Shown here: positions 21,731 to 29,390 of the stretch, piece by piece | Position numbering within the stretch: position 1 is the first letter of the stretch | Layout of the letters: every line of letters begins with the position of its first letter | Origin: Clostridia bacterium | GTDB taxonomy: Bacteria > Bacillota > Clostridia > Christensenellales > CAG-917 | Assembly (NCBI GenBank): GCA_028710495.1 | Contig: JAQUST010000001.1 | Location: 169,853-220,404 of the forward strand | Length of the DNA: 50,552 nt | Direction of reading: 5' to 3' | The notes under the pieces: generated by a model | Told to the model about the DNA's origin: nothing | Databases searched by the model: none | Seen by the model: only the letters and a program-made list of their open reading frames with translations | Translations under genes and position numbers: made by a program

Positions 21731-22669
21731 TCAAGAAACGACATTTTTTGGTTTACCTTCAATAAAATTTTTCAAATTCTCTACCGTAACAGTCAACAGC
21801 CTTTGCCTTGCTTCAAAAGACATCCAAGCGATATGAGGTGTAATAAGACAATTTTTTGCTGTTAACAAAGGATTATCAGCTTTGGGCGGCTCAACAGACA
21901 AAACATCCAGACCAGCTCCTGCAATCTTTCCAGAATTGAGTGCATCAGCAAGCGCTTCCTCATCAATTAGCCCGCCTCTTGATGTATTCAAAAGAAATGC
22001 GGTTGGTTTCATAAGAGTGATTGTTTTTGCATTTATAAACTTTTCGTTGTCTTTTGATAAAGCGCAATGAAGCGAAACAAAATCAGAGTTTTTCAAAACT
22101 TCTTCCAAAGAAACAGTGTTTTCTTTTGGAGTACGGTTGTAAGCAAGCACCTTCATACCAAATGCCCGCGCAATTTTTGCCACAGCATTCCCAATATTGC
22201 CATAGCCTACTATTCCCATAGTTTTACCATATAGTTCGGTTATCGGAGACGTCGCAAAACAAAAGTCCTGACAGTTCACCCATTCTCCGCTGTGAACAGC
22301 TTTATTGTGTGCGCCAACATTTGAACATAATTCCAAAAGCAGAGCAAACGTCAATTGCGCTACACTATTTGTGCTATATGCGGGGACATTGCAAACTACA
22401 ATGCCCCTCGCCTTTGCTTCAACAACATCAACAACATTATAGCCTGTGGCGTTTATGCCCACAAATTTCAAGTTTGGGCAATTTTCCATAACTACTTTGT
22501 CAATAACCACTTTGTTTACAAAAATTGCTTCTGCAAGACCGATGCGTTCTATTGTGTCTTCTCGTTTTGTACGAGTATAGACAGTCACATCGCCATAAAT
22601 TGACAATGCTTTTTCAAACGATAAATCATCTTGCTCCACACTGCGAGCGTCCAATACTACGATTTTTAT
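21731..22669 (-). CDS. D-2-hydroxyacid dehydrogenase, apparent ATA start codon
   Basis: GIVGYGNIGNAVAKIARAFGMKVLAY NAD-binding motif; NTSRGGLIDEEAL; family-typical N-terminus (M)KIVVLD lies at ATA codon 22669-22667 with GGAGG 7 nt upstream. Confidence 0.85.
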   Translation of the reverse strand: MKIVVLDARSVEQDDLSFEKALSIYGDVTVYTRTKREDTIERIGLAEAIFVNKVVIDKVVMENCPNLKFVGINATGYNVVDVVEAKARGIVVCNVPAYSTNSVAQLTFALLLELCSNVGAHNKAVHSGEWVNCQDFCFATSPITELYGKTMGIVGYGNIGNAVAKIARAFGMKVLAYNRTPKENTVSLEEVLKNSDFVSLHCALSKDNEKFINAKTITLMKPTAFLLNTSRGGLIDEEALADALNSGKIAGAGLDVLSVEPPKADNPLLTAKNCLITPHIAWMSFEARQRLLTVTVENLKNFIEGKPKNVVS

Positions 22670-22925
22670 AATTCTTCCTCCACTTCTAATCAGCGAAAAA
22701 CTAATATTATGCCTATATACTTTGTTCAAAATCATAATATCATTACTCTCAAAAAAAAGCAATTCAAGTATCCGAAAAAATTAGTTCGATTTCAACTTAT
22801 CCAAGTATTATCTTAGTTGCTATCCATTGATTGCTATCGACAAATTTTAGACTTATAAACTATTTTTTCAGAATAATGACTATTGTTCTCAATTTCTATC
22901 TGTCATTATGTATTTCATAAACCGT

Positions 22926-23765
22926 TTAATTCAGCTTATCCAAATATTCACCTTGCGCAAAGTAAGCAACACCGAACATAAGATTCCCAAGAGCGCCACC
23001 GAATTCAGGAGCACCCTCAATATTGAGAAATCCTTGTTCAATATAGGGTATCATTTCTGCTTTTGACATAAGGATATCCAGCGCATGTTGCGGAGAATCC
23101 CAACGCATTGTCAAGAAAGGACGACATCTTTTATATTCGCCTCTTCCAGCCTTCGAGTTTCCAGCCTTAATACGCAACCAGGATTGAAGTTCAGGATATC
23201 CGCTGACCGCAAAAGCATACGCCCTGTCAGGGCTAGGCTCAGTAAATGCCTTAAATTCTGGATAACCCAATTTATTAAGCTGACTGATACCGCTTGGCAG
23301 CAAATAGAAATATAATTTGACAAGCATAATCTGATCTTCTAGTTTTTGTGGAACATCTTTGCATTGCAGCAATCCTGCCATACGCAAAAGCGTCATAAGG
23401 ATTGAAACCAAAATTCCAAGTTTACCCCAACCCTTAATTTTGGGCAACGGCATGCCTTTCCCTGAGAAAAAGATATTGAAGTCACGCAGATTTGGAAAAA
23501 TAAACTCAACATCAGGATTTTCGTGGAGCTTCCCAACATTTACTGTCCAGTTCCCGTCCTCGACAACAAAATGAGTGCCCATAGCACCACCCTCTGCCTC
23601 GGAATATTTTGCGCTCACTTGGAAAACGAAAGATTTTCCAGCAAACTTTTTGCCATATTTTTCTTCACTCTCTGCGATGACACGAAGCAACGGCAATGCG
23701 GAATATAAAAATATTCGTGCCGCGTAGACATCGTCTTGAGTGATAATTGGTGATTGTTTTGCCAT
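22926..23765 (-). CDS. SCP2-like lipid/sterol-carrier fold protein, uncharacterised
   Basis: KFAGKSFVFQVSAKY...WTVNVGKLHENPDVEFIFPNLRDF; C-terminal DILMSKAEMIPYIEQGFLNIEGAPEFGGALGNLM resembles SCP2 C-terminus. Confidence 0.5.
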   Translation of the reverse strand: MAKQSPIITQDDVYAARIFLYSALPLLRVIAESEEKYGKKFAGKSFVFQVSAKYSEAEGGAMGTHFVVEDGNWTVNVGKLHENPDVEFIFPNLRDFNIFFSGKGMPLPKIKGWGKLGILVSILMTLLRMAGLLQCKDVPQKLEDQIMLVKLYFYLLPSGISQLNKLGYPEFKAFTEPSPDRAYAFAVSGYPELQSWLRIKAGNSKAGRGEYKRCRPFLTMRWDSPQHALDILMSKAEMIPYIEQGFLNIEGAPEFGGALGNLMFGVAYFAQGEYLDKLN

Positions 23766-23766
23766 A

Positions 23767-24777
23767 TTACACCTCGTCGCCCCAATCTTCGTCAGCCTCG
23801 AAGTCTGCTTTCATAACTTCAAGCACATTCTTGACGATACCCTCTGAATCAATTTCATACATTGCCATTAAGTCCTCGTGAAGTCCTATTGCTGAAAAGT
23901 GGTCTTGAAGTCCAAGCTTTCTGAATGCGCAGGCCTTTCCACCTTCAACAACAACCTCAGCAACTGCGCTACCAAGACCTCCAATAACTGTGTGGTCTTC
24001 AACTGTAACGATACGACGGGTTTCTTTGACAGCTTTCAACACTGCCTCACGGTCTATTGGCTTTATGGTGTGCATATTCAAAACTTTAGCCGAAATTTTA
24101 TAATCGTTCTTCAATATCGACGCTGCTTGAACCGCTTGATAAACGCAAGAACCACACGCAATAATCGTGATGTCTGTTCCATCGCACATTTCGACTGCTT
24201 TTCCAACTTCAAAGTCATAATCATCTGTGCTGTAAACTGTTTGATCAAATCCGCGATTGATTCGAATATAGAACGGTCCTTTTGTTGCGGCAGCGGCTTT
24301 GACTGCAAGCCCTGTTTCGATGCCGTCTGCGGGACAAATTAGTGTCATATTGACAAGACTACGGATAATAGCAAAATCTTCAATAGCGTGGTGAGTGCTT
24401 CCTGCCTGTCCAAAGGATGTTCCGCCGTGCGTGCCAATAATTTTGACGTTCAGATTTTGATAGCAGATGTCGGTATGCACTTGATCAAGAGCTCGCATTG
24501 AAGCGAAAACGGAAAATGAGGATGCAAAAGGAGTAAGTCCACATTTCGCAAGTCCTGCTGAAATTCCATAAAGGTTTTGCTCCGCAATGCCGACGTTGAT
24601 AAATCTATCGGGGAATTTCTTTTGGAAATCACCGATTTTGGTTGAGCCTGCAAGGTCCGCGGTAAGTGCCACAATGGTCGGGTCCTTTTCGCCTAGCTCA
24701 CACAATGTTTTGCCAAATATTTCTGCTGTGGCGAGCTTTGTGCTCTCGACAGCTGTAAAAACGAGTCCGCCTGCCAT
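23767..24777 (-). CDS. Transketolase C-terminal subunit (split transketolase)
   Basis: PDRFINVGIAEQNLYGISAGLAKCGLTPFASSFSVFASMRALDQ and VEDHTVIGGLGSAVAEV. Confidence 0.9.
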   Translation of the reverse strand: MAGGLVFTAVESTKLATAEIFGKTLCELGEKDPTIVALTADLAGSTKIGDFQKKFPDRFINVGIAEQNLYGISAGLAKCGLTPFASSFSVFASMRALDQVHTDICYQNLNVKIIGTHGGTSFGQAGSTHHAIEDFAIIRSLVNMTLICPADGIETGLAVKAAAATKGPFYIRINRGFDQTVYSTDDYDFEVGKAVEMCDGTDITIIACGSCVYQAVQAASILKNDYKISAKVLNMHTIKPIDREAVLKAVKETRRIVTVEDHTVIGGLGSAVAEVVVEGGKACAFRKLGLQDHFSAIGLHEDLMAMYEIDSEGIVKNVLEVMKADFEADEDWGDEV

Positions 24778-24778
24778 A

Positions 24779-25648
24779 TTACTTACCCTCCTTTTCAGCT
24801 ACTTCAAGTCTTTGCTTGAGATAATTTGCAAGGTCTTCATTTGCCAAATTGAATTTTGCTTCATCTATTGCGCCATAGTGCCACTTATAGTTTCCAGCCA
24901 TATAACTTACGCCTGCGCCCTTTACGGTGTCACAGATGATGCACACGGGCTTTGTTTTGGCACTCTGCGCGTATTCAATAGCTTCACACAATTCGTCAAA
25001 ACGATGACCATTGACAACTTTCACATCAAATCCGAATGCTGTCCATTTGTCAGCAAACGGTTCAAGCGCCATAACATCTTCAGTGTTACCGTCAATCATA
25101 TTGTGGTTACGGTCAACAAAAGTGATAAGATTTGAAGCCTTGAAATTAGCTGTCGCCATCGCCGCTTCCCAAACTGAACCCTCATCGCATTCGCCATCGC
25201 CGAGCAATAAGTATGTTTTGTATGTTTTCTTATTGATGCGAGCTGCAAGTGCCATTCCAAGAGCCATTGCTGAGCCGTGACCAAGTGACCCTGTTGAAGC
25301 GTCCAAACCCTTAACTTTGTTTGAATCTAAATGCATGCCAAGCTTACTGCCTGTAAGATTGAATGTTTTAAGTTCTTCCTTTTCAATTAGTCCCAAATCA
25401 GAAAACATAGATGCAAGAGCAATGCCAATGTGTCCTTTTGAAACTACGCAACGGTCGCGATCTGGGTCATCAGTGTTTTTCGGGTCGAAATTTAAGTACT
25501 TATAATATAGTGCGGTAAGAATATCTATCGAACTAAAGCTGCCGCCTATATGACCGCTACCCGCCCAAAATGTTGTTTGCAATGTCAAAGCTCTAAGGTC
25601 ATTAGCCTTTTTTTCAAGCCTTGCCCACTCTTTTTTCGTCAAACTCAT
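24779..25648 (-). CDS. Transketolase N-terminal subunit (split transketolase)
   Basis: GSGHIGGSFSSIDILTALYY; GDGECDEGSVWEAAMAT TPP motif. Confidence 0.92.
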   Translation of the reverse strand: MSLTKKEWARLEKKANDLRALTLQTTFWAGSGHIGGSFSSIDILTALYYKYLNFDPKNTDDPDRDRCVVSKGHIGIALASMFSDLGLIEKEELKTFNLTGSKLGMHLDSNKVKGLDASTGSLGHGSAMALGMALAARINKKTYKTYLLLGDGECDEGSVWEAAMATANFKASNLITFVDRNHNMIDGNTEDVMALEPFADKWTAFGFDVKVVNGHRFDELCEAIEYAQSAKTKPVCIICDTVKGAGVSYMAGNYKWHYGAIDEAKFNLANEDLANYLKQRLEVAEKEGK

Positions 25649-25749
25649 ATTTATTCCTCCATCATATTATTTCGTTCAAAACAGTTCAGATTTTAAAATA
25701 TCAAAACAGACTTGTATTTTGAAAATTCAATTTGAAATTTGCGATAAAG

Positions 25750-27009
25750 TTATTTGATATTATGAATTTTCGCTACAACTTTGTATGCTTCGTCTGCAAT
25801 ATCCAATGTAAATTGTATATCTTCATCCGAAAGCGAGGAATTGATAAATTGATTGTGATGTGAGGTCATAAACACTCCCCGTTTGACCATTTCAGCAACC
25901 CACTCTTGATGAATCATTGATGAATAGTCATTTTTGAGTCGCATAAACCACATTGAAGGTTCTCCTGAAACTATAAGTTCAAACCCGTTCGCTTTTGCAA
26001 CTTCCACCAATCCGCTTTCAAGTTTCTCACCTTTTGCTCTGACAACTTTGTGAATTTCCATTTCACGCATTTTTTTTATTGACGCAATACCCGCAGCAAA
26101 CGGAACAGCTGACAGCCAATAACTTCCTGTATAATAGACATCGGTTGCAGTGCCACGAAGTGAATCAATTCCCGCAAGCGCGCTAACGTTGTAACCGTTC
26201 GCAATTGCCTTGCAGAAGCATTCTAAATCTGCCTTTATTCCATAATGATAGTCACTACCCTTGACATCAAGTCGGAAACCGCAACGAATATCATCAAAAA
26301 TAAGCACAATACCTTCTTTAGTACAAATATCACGAACAGTTTTGTACCAGTCTGCATTTGGGAGTTCATTGTCTTCAAAAACAGGATGCGAATATGGTGT
26401 TGTAATGAAACAGGCAATTTCCCCCTTGTTTTCAGCAACAACACGCTTGAAATCTTCTAAATCATTGAATTTGCAATAAAGATTGTTGGTGACTTCTTCT
26501 TCCAAAATGCCCCCGCATCCAAGTTTTTGAGTCCAGGGTGCGACGCCGTGATACGAGCCCTTGAGCATCAATATCTTCTTGCGTGAAGTGGCTTGCCTTG
26601 CAATCATAATAGAAAACGAAGTGACATCGCCGCCATTCTTTGCGAAGAATACCCAGTCTGCCATATCAACCGTGTCACAAAACAGCTCTGCGAAGTCAAC
26701 AAGAACTTTTGAAGGACTTGTCACACAGTTACCTAGTTTGATTTGCTCAATAGCTGCCGCATCAACGTCATCATCATTGTATCCCATAATATTAGGACCG
26801 TAGGCACACATATAGTCAATGAAACGGTTCCCGTCTACATCCCAAAAATATGAGCCTTTCGCGTGATCAGAAAATATAGGGAATGCCGTAATTGGAATTG
26901 CGCAGCCTTCAGATGGACCTTGATGCCCGTAGACACCGCCCGGAATAACTTTTAATGCACGTTGGAACAACTCACCATTTTTTGTGTAATCATTTATTTT
27001 GAATTTCAT
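25750..27009 (-). CDS. Class III PLP-dependent aminotransferase (glutamate-1-semialdehyde aminomutase-like)
   Basis: VIPGGVYGHQGP, FAKNGGDVTSFSIMIARQATSRKKILMLKGSYHG, IFDDIRCGFRL, CFCKAIANGYNVSALAG. Confidence 0.85.
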   Translation of the reverse strand: MKFKINDYTKNGELFQRALKVIPGGVYGHQGPSEGCAIPITAFPIFSDHAKGSYFWDVDGNRFIDYMCAYGPNIMGYNDDDVDAAAIEQIKLGNCVTSPSKVLVDFAELFCDTVDMADWVFFAKNGGDVTSFSIMIARQATSRKKILMLKGSYHGVAPWTQKLGCGGILEEEVTNNLYCKFNDLEDFKRVVAENKGEIACFITTPYSHPVFEDNELPNADWYKTVRDICTKEGIVLIFDDIRCGFRLDVKGSDYHYGIKADLECFCKAIANGYNVSALAGIDSLRGTATDVYYTGSYWLSAVPFAAGIASIKKMREMEIHKVVRAKGEKLESGLVEVAKANGFELIVSGEPSMWFMRLKNDYSSMIHQEWVAEMVKRGVFMTSHHNQFINSSLSDEDIQFTLDIADEAYKVVAKIHNIK

Positions 27010-27019
27010 AATTTCACCT

Positions 27020-27775
27020 CTATGCCAAATATTTGCTCACAAAAGCAAGCAGTTTACTCATATTGTCGAGCATTGGAAGAAAGCCTTTGATGAGGAATTT
27101 ACCAGCACCAAGGCAACTATAAATATCTGTTTTACCATTGAGAATATCGCTCGCAGTTTGAAGATTTGAAAACTGCATAAGTGCGCGTGGCTCGTCGATT
27201 GCGCCTTTCCTAACAGACATACTGTGCGTTTCATCAATATTGATGACCATTTCGGGACCTTCAACCACACGAAGCTGAATGTCGCCTTGAGGAATTCTCG
27301 AAGCAATCAATTTGCCAATACGGTCGCTATTGCCGATTTCGCAAAGAGCAAAAAATGCAGTGTACGCAGTGAGATATGTATTTATTTTGAAATATTCAGG
27401 ATCTGCCAACAACTCAGATGTTGGCTTCAAAAAATACGACAATCTTGCTGCGAGTTTTGTGAATGTGTCAAGCAAGAATCCCGCTTTGAATATATTAATA
27501 AAAATAGGAATTGTTTTTTCGCCATCAACAAGCTTATTAAAATGTTCTGGCGATGTAAACGAAAGCTTCAAATTCGCTTTTGCTTTTCCACGAATGAATG
27601 CACATTTGCCTTCCACAAATTTTAAGGTTGCATTTCCGACTTTTGGAACATTGAATTGAACTGATATTTTCTGATTTTTGATGATTTCCTGCGCAACCGG
27701 GTCCATAGCACACAAATCTTGAATATTGCGTAAAACGGCAAAAAGATTGATTTTTGCCTTTGTGATATTGTCCAT
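27020..27775 (-). CDS. SCP2-like lipid/sterol-carrier fold protein, uncharacterised
   Basis: KISVQFNVPKVGNATLKFVEGKCAFIRGKAKANLKLSFTSPEHFNKLVDG; second SCP2-like segment ALMQFSNLQTASDILNGKTDIYSCLGAGKFLIKGFLPMLDNMSKLL. Confidence 0.5.
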   Translation of the reverse strand: MDNITKAKINLFAVLRNIQDLCAMDPVAQEIIKNQKISVQFNVPKVGNATLKFVEGKCAFIRGKAKANLKLSFTSPEHFNKLVDGEKTIPIFINIFKAGFLLDTFTKLAARLSYFLKPTSELLADPEYFKINTYLTAYTAFFALCEIGNSDRIGKLIASRIPQGDIQLRVVEGPEMVINIDETHSMSVRKGAIDEPRALMQFSNLQTASDILNGKTDIYSCLGAGKFLIKGFLPMLDNMSKLLAFVSKYLA

Positions 27776-28097: not shown

Positions 28098-28115
28098 CGT
28101 TTTATTAAAATATTC

Positions 28116-28239
28116 TTTGGGCAGGGTTGAATACCCGACCGGTGGTGATGCCGTTTTATACGGACAAGTCCAACAGCCCCAACAGCCGATGCGGTTAGAA
28201 TCCGCAACCGCCTGTAAAGTCAGCATGGGAGAGAGTAGC
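28116..28239 (+). ncRNA. FMN riboswitch (RFN element)
   Basis: gggcagggttgaataCCCGACCGGTGGTgatgcc...agccgatgcggttagaatccgcaaccgcc...agcatgggagagagta matches the RFN consensus blocks. Confidence 0.93.
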
Positions 28240-28264
28240 ATTATTGCACAACAGTGCTTTTTTT
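28236..28264 (+). terminator. Riboswitch expression-platform terminator 1
   Basis: agcattattgcacaacagtgct followed by ttttttt. Confidence 0.6.
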
Positions 28265-28308: not shown

Positions 28309-28341
28309 CCATCTATCTTGTCCAAGAAAAAGGATAGCAGG

Positions 28342-28938
28342 ATGAAAATTCAAACAAGAACAATAGCATTTACCGCACTTATGACAGCGCTTGTCACCAT
28401 TTCGACAGCATTTTTGGGCGTAAATATGGGCACAACTTACACAAATCTAGGCGATACTATGATTTTTGTGACCGCTGCCCTTTTTGGACCAGTTCCAGCA
28501 ATGATAGCAGGTGGATTAGGTTCTTTTATTGCAGATATGATGGTTTTCCCAATGACGATGTGGTTCACTCTTGTCATTAAAGGCATTGAAGGACTAATTT
28601 GCGGATTTCTTATTCGCATATTTTCGAAACTGAATTTCAAAAAACCAATAGGAATTATATTGAATTTTATCGCTATGATAGCAGCGGGCATCTGGATGAT
28701 GGCAGGCTATTTTCTTGCAGAGAGTTTATTGTACGGGACACTTGCAGCCGCTGTTTTTGCACTTTCAGCAAATGCGGTGCAAGCAACATTATCAATAACA
28801 TGCGCTTTGATTTTGGTTTACGGTTTTAAGCTCTGCAAGATGAGCATTGATCTCAAAGTTTTCAAATCCACTCATTCTAAAAGCACCAAAACGAACTCGA
28901 GAGATACAAGTACCGAAACACCGCCGACAATAGAATAA
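28342..28938 (+). CDS. ECF transporter S component (probable flavin/precursor uptake, under FMN riboswitch)
   Basis: TYTNLGDTMIFVTAALFGPVPAMIAGGLGSFIADM typical of NLGD-type ECF S components; RBS aagga before ATG at 28342. Confidence 0.85.
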   Translation: MKIQTRTIAFTALMTALVTISTAFLGVNMGTTYTNLGDTMIFVTAALFGPVPAMIAGGLGSFIADMMVFPMTMWFTLVIKGIEGLICGFLIRIFSKLNFKKPIGIILNFIAMIAAGIWMMAGYFLAESLLYGTLAAAVFALSANAVQATLSITCALILVYGFKLCKMSIDLKVFKSTHSKSTKTNSRDTSTETPPTIE

Positions 28939-29008
28939 ATGAAGATTAAAGCATAATTTCTTCTGCTTTCAAAAAAAATTAACAAAGCGACAACATAGTT
29001 GACTTTTT

Positions 29009-29314
29009 TGGAGCTGTTACCGGGATTTGCTCCGTTTCGCTTTGCTTCACTATCACGCCGGGGCTACGACCCTTCTTCTGCCACTGGCAGCGGGTCTTGC
29101 CCGTTCAAATCCCTTTTTACCTTAGAAACAAAAATAGTCCCCACTTGGGGACTATTTTGGTTGGAGCTGTTACCGGGATTTGCTCCGTTTCGCTTTGCTT
29201 CACTATCACGCCGGGGCTACGACCCTTCTTCTGCCACTGGCAGCGGGTCTTGCCCGTTCAAATCCCTTTTTACCTTAGAAACAAAAATAGTCCCCACTTG
29301 GGGACTATTTTGGT
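29009..29314 (-). repeat. Two 153-bp tandem units downstream of tRNA-Thr, each with a copy of the tRNA 3' end plus a terminator
   Basis: tggagctgttaccgggattt at 29009, 29162 and 29315 (the real tRNA); identical spacer and aaaatagtccccacttggggactatttt terminator in each unit. Confidence 0.95.
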
Positions 29315-29390
29315 TGGAGCTGTTACCGGGATTTGAACCCGGGACCTCGTCCTTACCAAGGACGTGCTCTACCGACTGAGCCATAACAGC
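29315..29390 (-). tRNA. tRNA-Thr(GGT), CCA encoded
   Basis: GCTGTTATGGCTCAGTCGGTAGAGCACGTCCTTGGTAAGGACGAGGTCCCGGGTTCAAATCCCGGTAACAGCTCCA; cloverleaf, anticodon loop TTGGTAA. Confidence 0.97.

Follow-up and report, generated by a model that had tools for sequence, protein, structure and literature searches.

A conserved cluster of a FumI-like aminotransferase, a split transketolase and two predicted SCP2-fold carriers in Clostridia and other bacteria, with a putative role in processing hydrophobic amino-alcohols

The window analyzed here is a stretch of 50,552 nucleotides from the genome of a gut bacterium of the Clostridia (order Christensenellales, CAG-917; assembly GCA_028710495.1, contig JAQUST010000001.1, positions 169,853 to 220,404), which is 91% complete. 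It contains a tight cluster of five genes, all on the minus strand between 27775 and 22926 and here named, in transcription order, SCPa–AT3–TKN–TKC–SCPb. The first gene of the operon, SCPa (27020-27775), codes for a 251 aa protein predicted to be a tandem SCP2-fold carrier, and is followed by AT3 (25750-27009), a class III aminotransferase dependent on pyridoxal phosphate (PLP), with K267 as the expected PLP lysine. TKN (24779-25648) and TKC (23767-24777) are the two halves of a split transketolase (TK), and SCPb (22926-23765) codes for a second predicted tandem SCP2-fold protein (279 aa) that travels with TKN-TKC. The Pfam matches are to Aminotran_3 for AT3 (2.7e-33), to Transketolase_N for TKN (1.4e-42), which has the thiamine-diphosphate (PP) domain, and to Transket_pyr (1.7e-38) and Transketolase_C (1e-28) for TKC, which has the pyrimidine-binding and C-terminal domains and, by alignment, the catalytic glutamate at E66. 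The gaps between the genes are 10, 101, 1 and 1 bp, in agreement with a first-pass annotation of this DNA, which described gaps of 1-10 bp with about 100 bp before TKN. It also named the five genes correctly, although it extended TKC to 22767 by a slip and omitted an adjoining D-2-hydroxyacid dehydrogenase gene.

The gene set is strongly conserved. We surveyed 297 genomes of the order, calling AT3 at E≤1e-80 (31 genomes) and ortholog-level TKC at E≤1e-110, and found TKC in 29 of the 31 genomes with AT3 as against 14 of the 266 without it (Fisher p 2.3e-27). The two AT3 genomes that lack TKC are one that is incomplete (69% complete) and one that is cut at a contig end. Where AT3 is located apart, TKN, TKC and SCPb remain together. 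A scan of GTDB found at least 578 candidate stretches encoding AT3 relatives, so the function is widespread, and neighborhoods were counted in the best 80 of these. They come from Clostridia, Spirochaetes, Paenibacillus, Arcanobacterium/Trueperella, an Alteromonadaceae strain, a Planctomycetaceae bin and a Lokiarchaeota bin. AT3 is immediately preceded by SCPa in 76 of the 80 loci, with a median gap of 13 bp, TKN and TKC are both present in 55, and the full five-gene order is seen in 43, belonging to Clostridia, Spirochaetes and Actinomycetaceae; the set is thus retained across several unrelated bacterial groups. Pairwise distance matrices of the five proteins (45 loci) correlate with r of 0.82-0.93, whereas the permutation maximum is 0.36. 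The ordered linkage, the co-occurrence and the distance correlation together exclude chance grouping, and the first two rule out a merely local coincidence of genes. The grouping is consistent with the block having been inherited or transferred whole, and the conservation of neighbors that the first-pass annotation had set as a test of its proposal is what we find.

The two parts of the cluster can also be found separately. Most genomes that have SCPa–AT3 with no linked transketolase (including Paenibacillus, the Alteromonadaceae strain and Clostridium hydrogenum) also lack an SCPb ortholog, and for TKC these SCPa–AT3 genomes have either no match or a best match of paralog rank (36-48% identity). 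Genus g45 and two g63 genomes encode stand-alone near relatives of TKN/TKC, with no SCPb beside them. Such separability, with SCPa–AT3 and TKN–TKC–SCPb on different contigs or alone, could mean that AT3 and the transketolase act on different molecules (e.g. a ketose-phosphate transketolase and a separate amine transaminase) and are co-regulated rather than sequential. We think this improbable, since the two modules each include one protein of the same SCP2 family, show strong co-occurrence and vary together.

Neither SCPa nor SCPb of the window matched any Pfam or NCBIfam model at E<1, and the SCP2 assignment therefore needed other evidence. Among their relatives, and at E≤0.1, the Pfam SCP2 model (PF02036) is matched by 36 of 54 SCPa proteins (best 1.2e-8) and by two of 45 SCPb proteins (best 9e-5), and an hhalign comparison (99%) shows homology between SCPa and SCPb along the whole of both proteins. 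The AlphaFold models (pLDDT 93.5 for SCPa and 95.6 for SCPb) have two alpha/beta units each, and for both the top Foldseek matches in the PDB are SCP2 proteins or domains (AF1534, UbiJ, SCP-2L, and alkylsulfatases; TMt about 0.5-0.68), with E-values for SCPa against UbiJ, SCP-2L and AF1534 as low as 2e-5. Both flanking proteins are thus predicted by modeling to have the SCP2 fold, as had been supposed from the sequence at the outset. They share this fold with UbiJ and other SCP2-domain scaffolds but are tandem SCP2 units of 250-280 aa, the window copies being too divergent for Pfam. UbiJ assists soluble enzymes that work on hydrophobic intermediates, and the pairing of predicted SCP2-fold carriers here, one beside each enzyme, suggests that the substrate or the intermediates are hydrophobic.

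By sequence, AT3 falls in the subfamily of FumI, an aminopentol aminotransferase, which among solved structures is its nearest relative (6hbs; 39% identity, 319 bits), with glutamate-1-semialdehyde aminomutase (GSAM) at 28% and 152 bits; the profile scores are 390 and 213 respectively. Thirty-six AT3-invariant residues are common to FumI and not GSAM, and 11 to GSAM and not FumI. AT3 scores 207.9 bits against the NCBIfam hemL equivalog, below the cut-off of 527, and this together with the closer FumI match rules out an ordinary GSAM (hemL). FumI (PDB 6hbs/6hbv) and AT3 have in common the class III PLP fold, the IDYMCAYGPN and GS[FY]W[FLM]SA stretches and the PLP-site context. They differ in that AT3 is partnered by an SCP2 carrier and, in most cases, by a split transketolase, and there is no fumonisin catabolic cluster or carboxylesterase here. 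FumI transfers the C2-amine of hydrolyzed fumonisin B1, a 2-amino-3-hydroxy analogue of sphingoid bases, to pyruvate (PMC2933618). The first-pass annotation had drawn an analogy to HpnO, which like AT3 is a class III aminotransferase and acts on a lipid, as AT3 would. HpnO itself was not among the solved structures compared with AT3, FumI being the closest of these, and no match to a squalene-hopene cyclase was found in the 91%-complete source genome; the hopanoid analogy is not supported. PigE of prodigiosin synthesis is a weak match (73 bits for the AT3 of a Spirochaetes locus, L131). PigD and PigE resemble the proposed pathway in combining thiamine-diphosphate (ThDP) chemistry with class III transamination on lipid-derived aldehydes, although PigD, a ThDP enzyme, is not a transketolase.

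The best solved relative of both TKN and TKC is the split transketolase of Carboxydothermus hydrogenoformans (6yaj/6yak, with 6yak the best for TKN), which has the same two-chain architecture. The catalytic glutamate is kept in all 52 operon TKCs, but the sugar-phosphate-binding residues expected of a housekeeping transketolase are not: the position of E. coli Asp469 is Ala in 52 of 52, and that of Arg358 is lost in 50 and kept in two, with Ala there in the window TKC. Human TKT and the Carboxydothermus enzyme (6yaj) retain the equivalents of both residues, and the published account of the latter, as far as consulted, mentions neither an SCP2 protein nor a transaminase as partner. Changes at D469 in E. 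coli TK widen acceptance to non-polar and aromatic aldehydes (PMC5073344). The loss of Asp469 is consistent with the pathway favored below and is not diagnostic of it, because stand-alone transketolases of the same order also lack this residue, which weakens the Asp-to-Ala change as a signature. A second split transketolase is encoded on contig C4 of the source genome and a DXS-like protein elsewhere in it, so TKN/TKC is not the only transketolase, and the refuting condition that the first-pass annotation had named, a sole transketolase in the genome, does not hold. An ordinary housekeeping (pentose-phosphate) enzyme would have the catalytic residues seen here, and the near relatives without SCPb in genus g45 and the two g63 genomes may be just that. 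For TKN/TKC this is very unlikely, given the second split transketolase and the ordered linkage across several phyla. The second copy supports a non-housekeeping enzyme, and the dedicated pathway originally proposed for the cluster is supported as well.

A split transketolase with a hydrophobic substrate has been proposed before. The steroid-17,20-desmolase of C. scindens, DesAB, is proposed to cut a C2 ketol side chain off a hydrophobic molecule, and like TKN/TKC is encoded by adjacent genes for the N- and C-halves of a transketolase (PMC3735941). Compared by description only, DesAB has a reported 34% identity to other transketolases and sits with a hydroxysteroid dehydrogenase (HSDH) and a transporter, whereas the partners of TKN/TKC are a transaminase and SCP2 proteins; no HSDH and transporter of the desABCD type were found beside the cluster in the survey of 80 loci. 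An ansamycin-type aminoDAHP split transketolase was also considered and set aside, as the partner here is a class III, FumI-like enzyme and not a sugar aminotransferase.

Transamination of a 2-amino-3-hydroxy amine yields an alpha-hydroxyketone, which has the type of bond that a transketolase makes or breaks, and the two enzymes thus fit a single route. We tentatively favor a reading in which the five genes act as a single metabolic unit on a hydrophobic vicinal amino-alcohol, with sphingoid bases as the likeliest substrates and breakdown or detoxification as the likely outcome. SCPa would present an amphipathic amine to AT3, which would turn the C2 amine into a ketone with a 2-oxoacid as amino acceptor, giving R-CH(OH)-CO-CH2OH (or -CH3). 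SCPb would then present this hydrophobic ketol to TKN/TKC for cleavage of the C2-C3 bond, the C2 unit passing to a sugar-phosphate acceptor and the long-chain aldehyde R-CHO being released for oxidation or reduction. Sphinganine, sphingosine and phytosphingosine would be the likeliest natural substrates, because sphingoid bases are abundant compounds with this head group and FumI acts on an analogue, and the purpose may be the breakdown or detoxification of these membrane-active amines. We infer the substrate, the direction and the action of both enzymes on one carbon skeleton. With somewhat greater reserve, we suggest that TKN/TKC could be a natural lipid transketolase, interconverting sphingoid-type 2-amino-1,3-diols and fatty aldehydes through a 1,3-dihydroxy-2-ketone on SCP2 carriers. 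The analysis points more to an amphipathic amine being broken down than to an aminosugar-like head group being built, and the amino-polyol or amino-ketose product put forward in the first-pass annotation is not supported.

Alcohol dehydrogenase (ADH) and aldehyde dehydrogenase (ALDH) genes would be expected after the transketolase module if the enzyme releases an aldehyde. In two Spirochaetes loci (L131 and L079) the module runs on into genes for an ADH and a class-3-type ALDH, and an orthologous ALDH lies 3′ of SCPb in L140. Thirteen loci, from three phyla, share an orthologous TetR regulator, and 12 have a glyoxalase-fold protein. The occurrence of SCPa–AT3 alone, the TetR regulator and the ADH/ALDH genes favor breakdown or detoxification as the probable role, and the catabolic direction is preferred because its first step, deamination of a toxic amine, can stand alone, whereas the second should not precede it. 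Transketolation is nonetheless reversible, and engineered cascades of transketolase and transaminase to 2-amino-1,3-diols exist. The operon might therefore support a synthesis independent of serine palmitoyltransferase, in which the transketolase takes a C2 unit from either a ketose phosphate or hydroxypyruvate and adds it to a fatty aldehyde held by SCPb, and AT3 converts the 1,3-dihydroxy-2-ketone, carried by SCPa, to a 2-amino-1,3-diol by amination. The adjoining D-2-hydroxyacid dehydrogenase (21731-22762, minus strand, 163 bp after SCPb) is of the hydroxypyruvate/glycerate type and a probable accessory gene; it would feed or drain hydroxypyruvate and could serve such a donor. The listed start codon of this gene is TTG, and translation may actually begin at an internal site; orthologs lie 3′ of the cluster in several relatives (L045, L046, L047/L065 and L056). 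AT3 and SCPa in free-living hosts such as Oceanirhabdus and Lokiarchaeota would also suit synthesis. We regard it as unlikely, however: SCPa–AT3 in the several genomes without TK and SCPb would have no source of ketone, the TetR-type regulator with the ADH/ALDH genes suggests an inducible, catabolic system, and no lipid-assembly gene is conserved beside the cluster in the 80 loci.

The same order of transaminase then transketolase could act on some other hydrophobic ketol or amine, such as a steroid or sterol-like amine, an aryl aminoalcohol or a terpenoid. Sterols as well as acyl chains are ligands of SCP2 folds. The precedent of DesAB concerns a steroid (PMC3735941), the closest NCBIfam match of the ALDH is the benzaldehyde dehydrogenase MdlD, and a permease of the APC type accompanies SCPa–AT3 in Paenibacillus. 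Four Clostridia loci (L067, L069, L074 and L075) have a 755-aa flavoenzyme of the old yellow enzyme type, nearest to BaiCD, and a glyoxalase-fold protein between SCPb and the TetR regulator. The flavoenzyme is limited to these four loci, though, there is no conserved HSDH or des-type neighbor, and the AT3 relative whose substrate is known acts on a long-chain sphingoid analogue. We regard a non-sphingoid substrate, steroid or aryl for instance, as a real rival, if an unlikely one.

Several observations weigh against the favored breakdown of sphingoid bases. The identity of AT3 to FumI is just 39%, and the stand-alone transketolases of the order share the loss of Asp469. One 95%-complete genome (G135/L183) has TKN-TKC-SCPb and no detected AT3. 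The Paenibacillus permease, which is of the amino-acid/amine type and lies 5′ of SCPa–AT3 in all loci of this genus examined, suggests that the amine in these bacteria is smaller or more polar. Neutral ceramidase (PF04734) was found in one of the 297 order genomes and in none with AT3, and so is not enriched, and the favored pathway leaves the hydroxyacid dehydrogenase of the window without an explained role.

Each part of the cluster has known relatives, but the combination is undescribed in the literature searched and no named system tested fits it. We found no paper on this operon in the open-access literature (transketolase and aminotransferase with sphingoid base or SCP2), although a subscription paper could be missed, and the first-pass annotation likewise recognized no characterized operon of this composition. 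The cluster may represent a lipid-carrier-assisted PLP/ThDP pathway of undescribed composition with a putative substrate. If the favored reading is correct, this would be a natural transketolase that acts on a lipid in partnership with a transaminase, in a route independent of sphingosine-1-phosphate lyase (or of serine palmitoyltransferase, were it biosynthetic) and shared by hundreds of bacteria from gut and sediment. It would give bacteria of the gut, rumen and termite gut a new route for degrading or making lipids of the sphingoid type, which have roles in host signaling and kill bacteria, and would provide a natural enzyme pair for aminodiol synthesis. The function is directly testable with the five genes from a culturable isolate, e.g. 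of Oceanirhabdus or Lutispora.

Other neighbors are more restricted. The order permease–SCPa–AT3 is seen in eight loci of AT3-bearing Paenibacillus (L094, L117 and L211-L216), with a large MalT/LuxR-like or a TetR regulator near some. In seven loci of one family (L048, L051, L052, L055, L066, L072 and L073) a DegV protein of the fatty-acid-binding type and a phosphoribosyltransferase are just 5′ of SCPa–AT3; as pathway genes these were rejected as lineage-local (L048, L051, L052 and L055). A giant surface protein and RmuC beside SCPa–AT3 (L037-L041, one family) are similarly lineage-local, and NifS/NifU-like genes after AT3 in some Treponema are not conserved elsewhere. An NAD-dependent epimerase-like protein of 339 aa, with no NCBIfam match, lies 3′ of SCPb in five Clostridia loci (L080, L087, L099, L108 and L109).

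Upstream of SCPa in the window there is a tRNA gene (29318-29390, minus strand) with two perfect 153-bp tandem copies before it (region 29008-29390), and an open reading frame at 28999-29379 that overlaps both is spurious. Between these and the operon, a flavin mononucleotide (FMN) riboswitch (28108-28240, plus strand) lies directly 5′ of the S component of a riboflavin-type energy-coupling factor transporter (28318-28938, plus strand), a unit that is divergent from the operon and represents ordinary riboflavin uptake.

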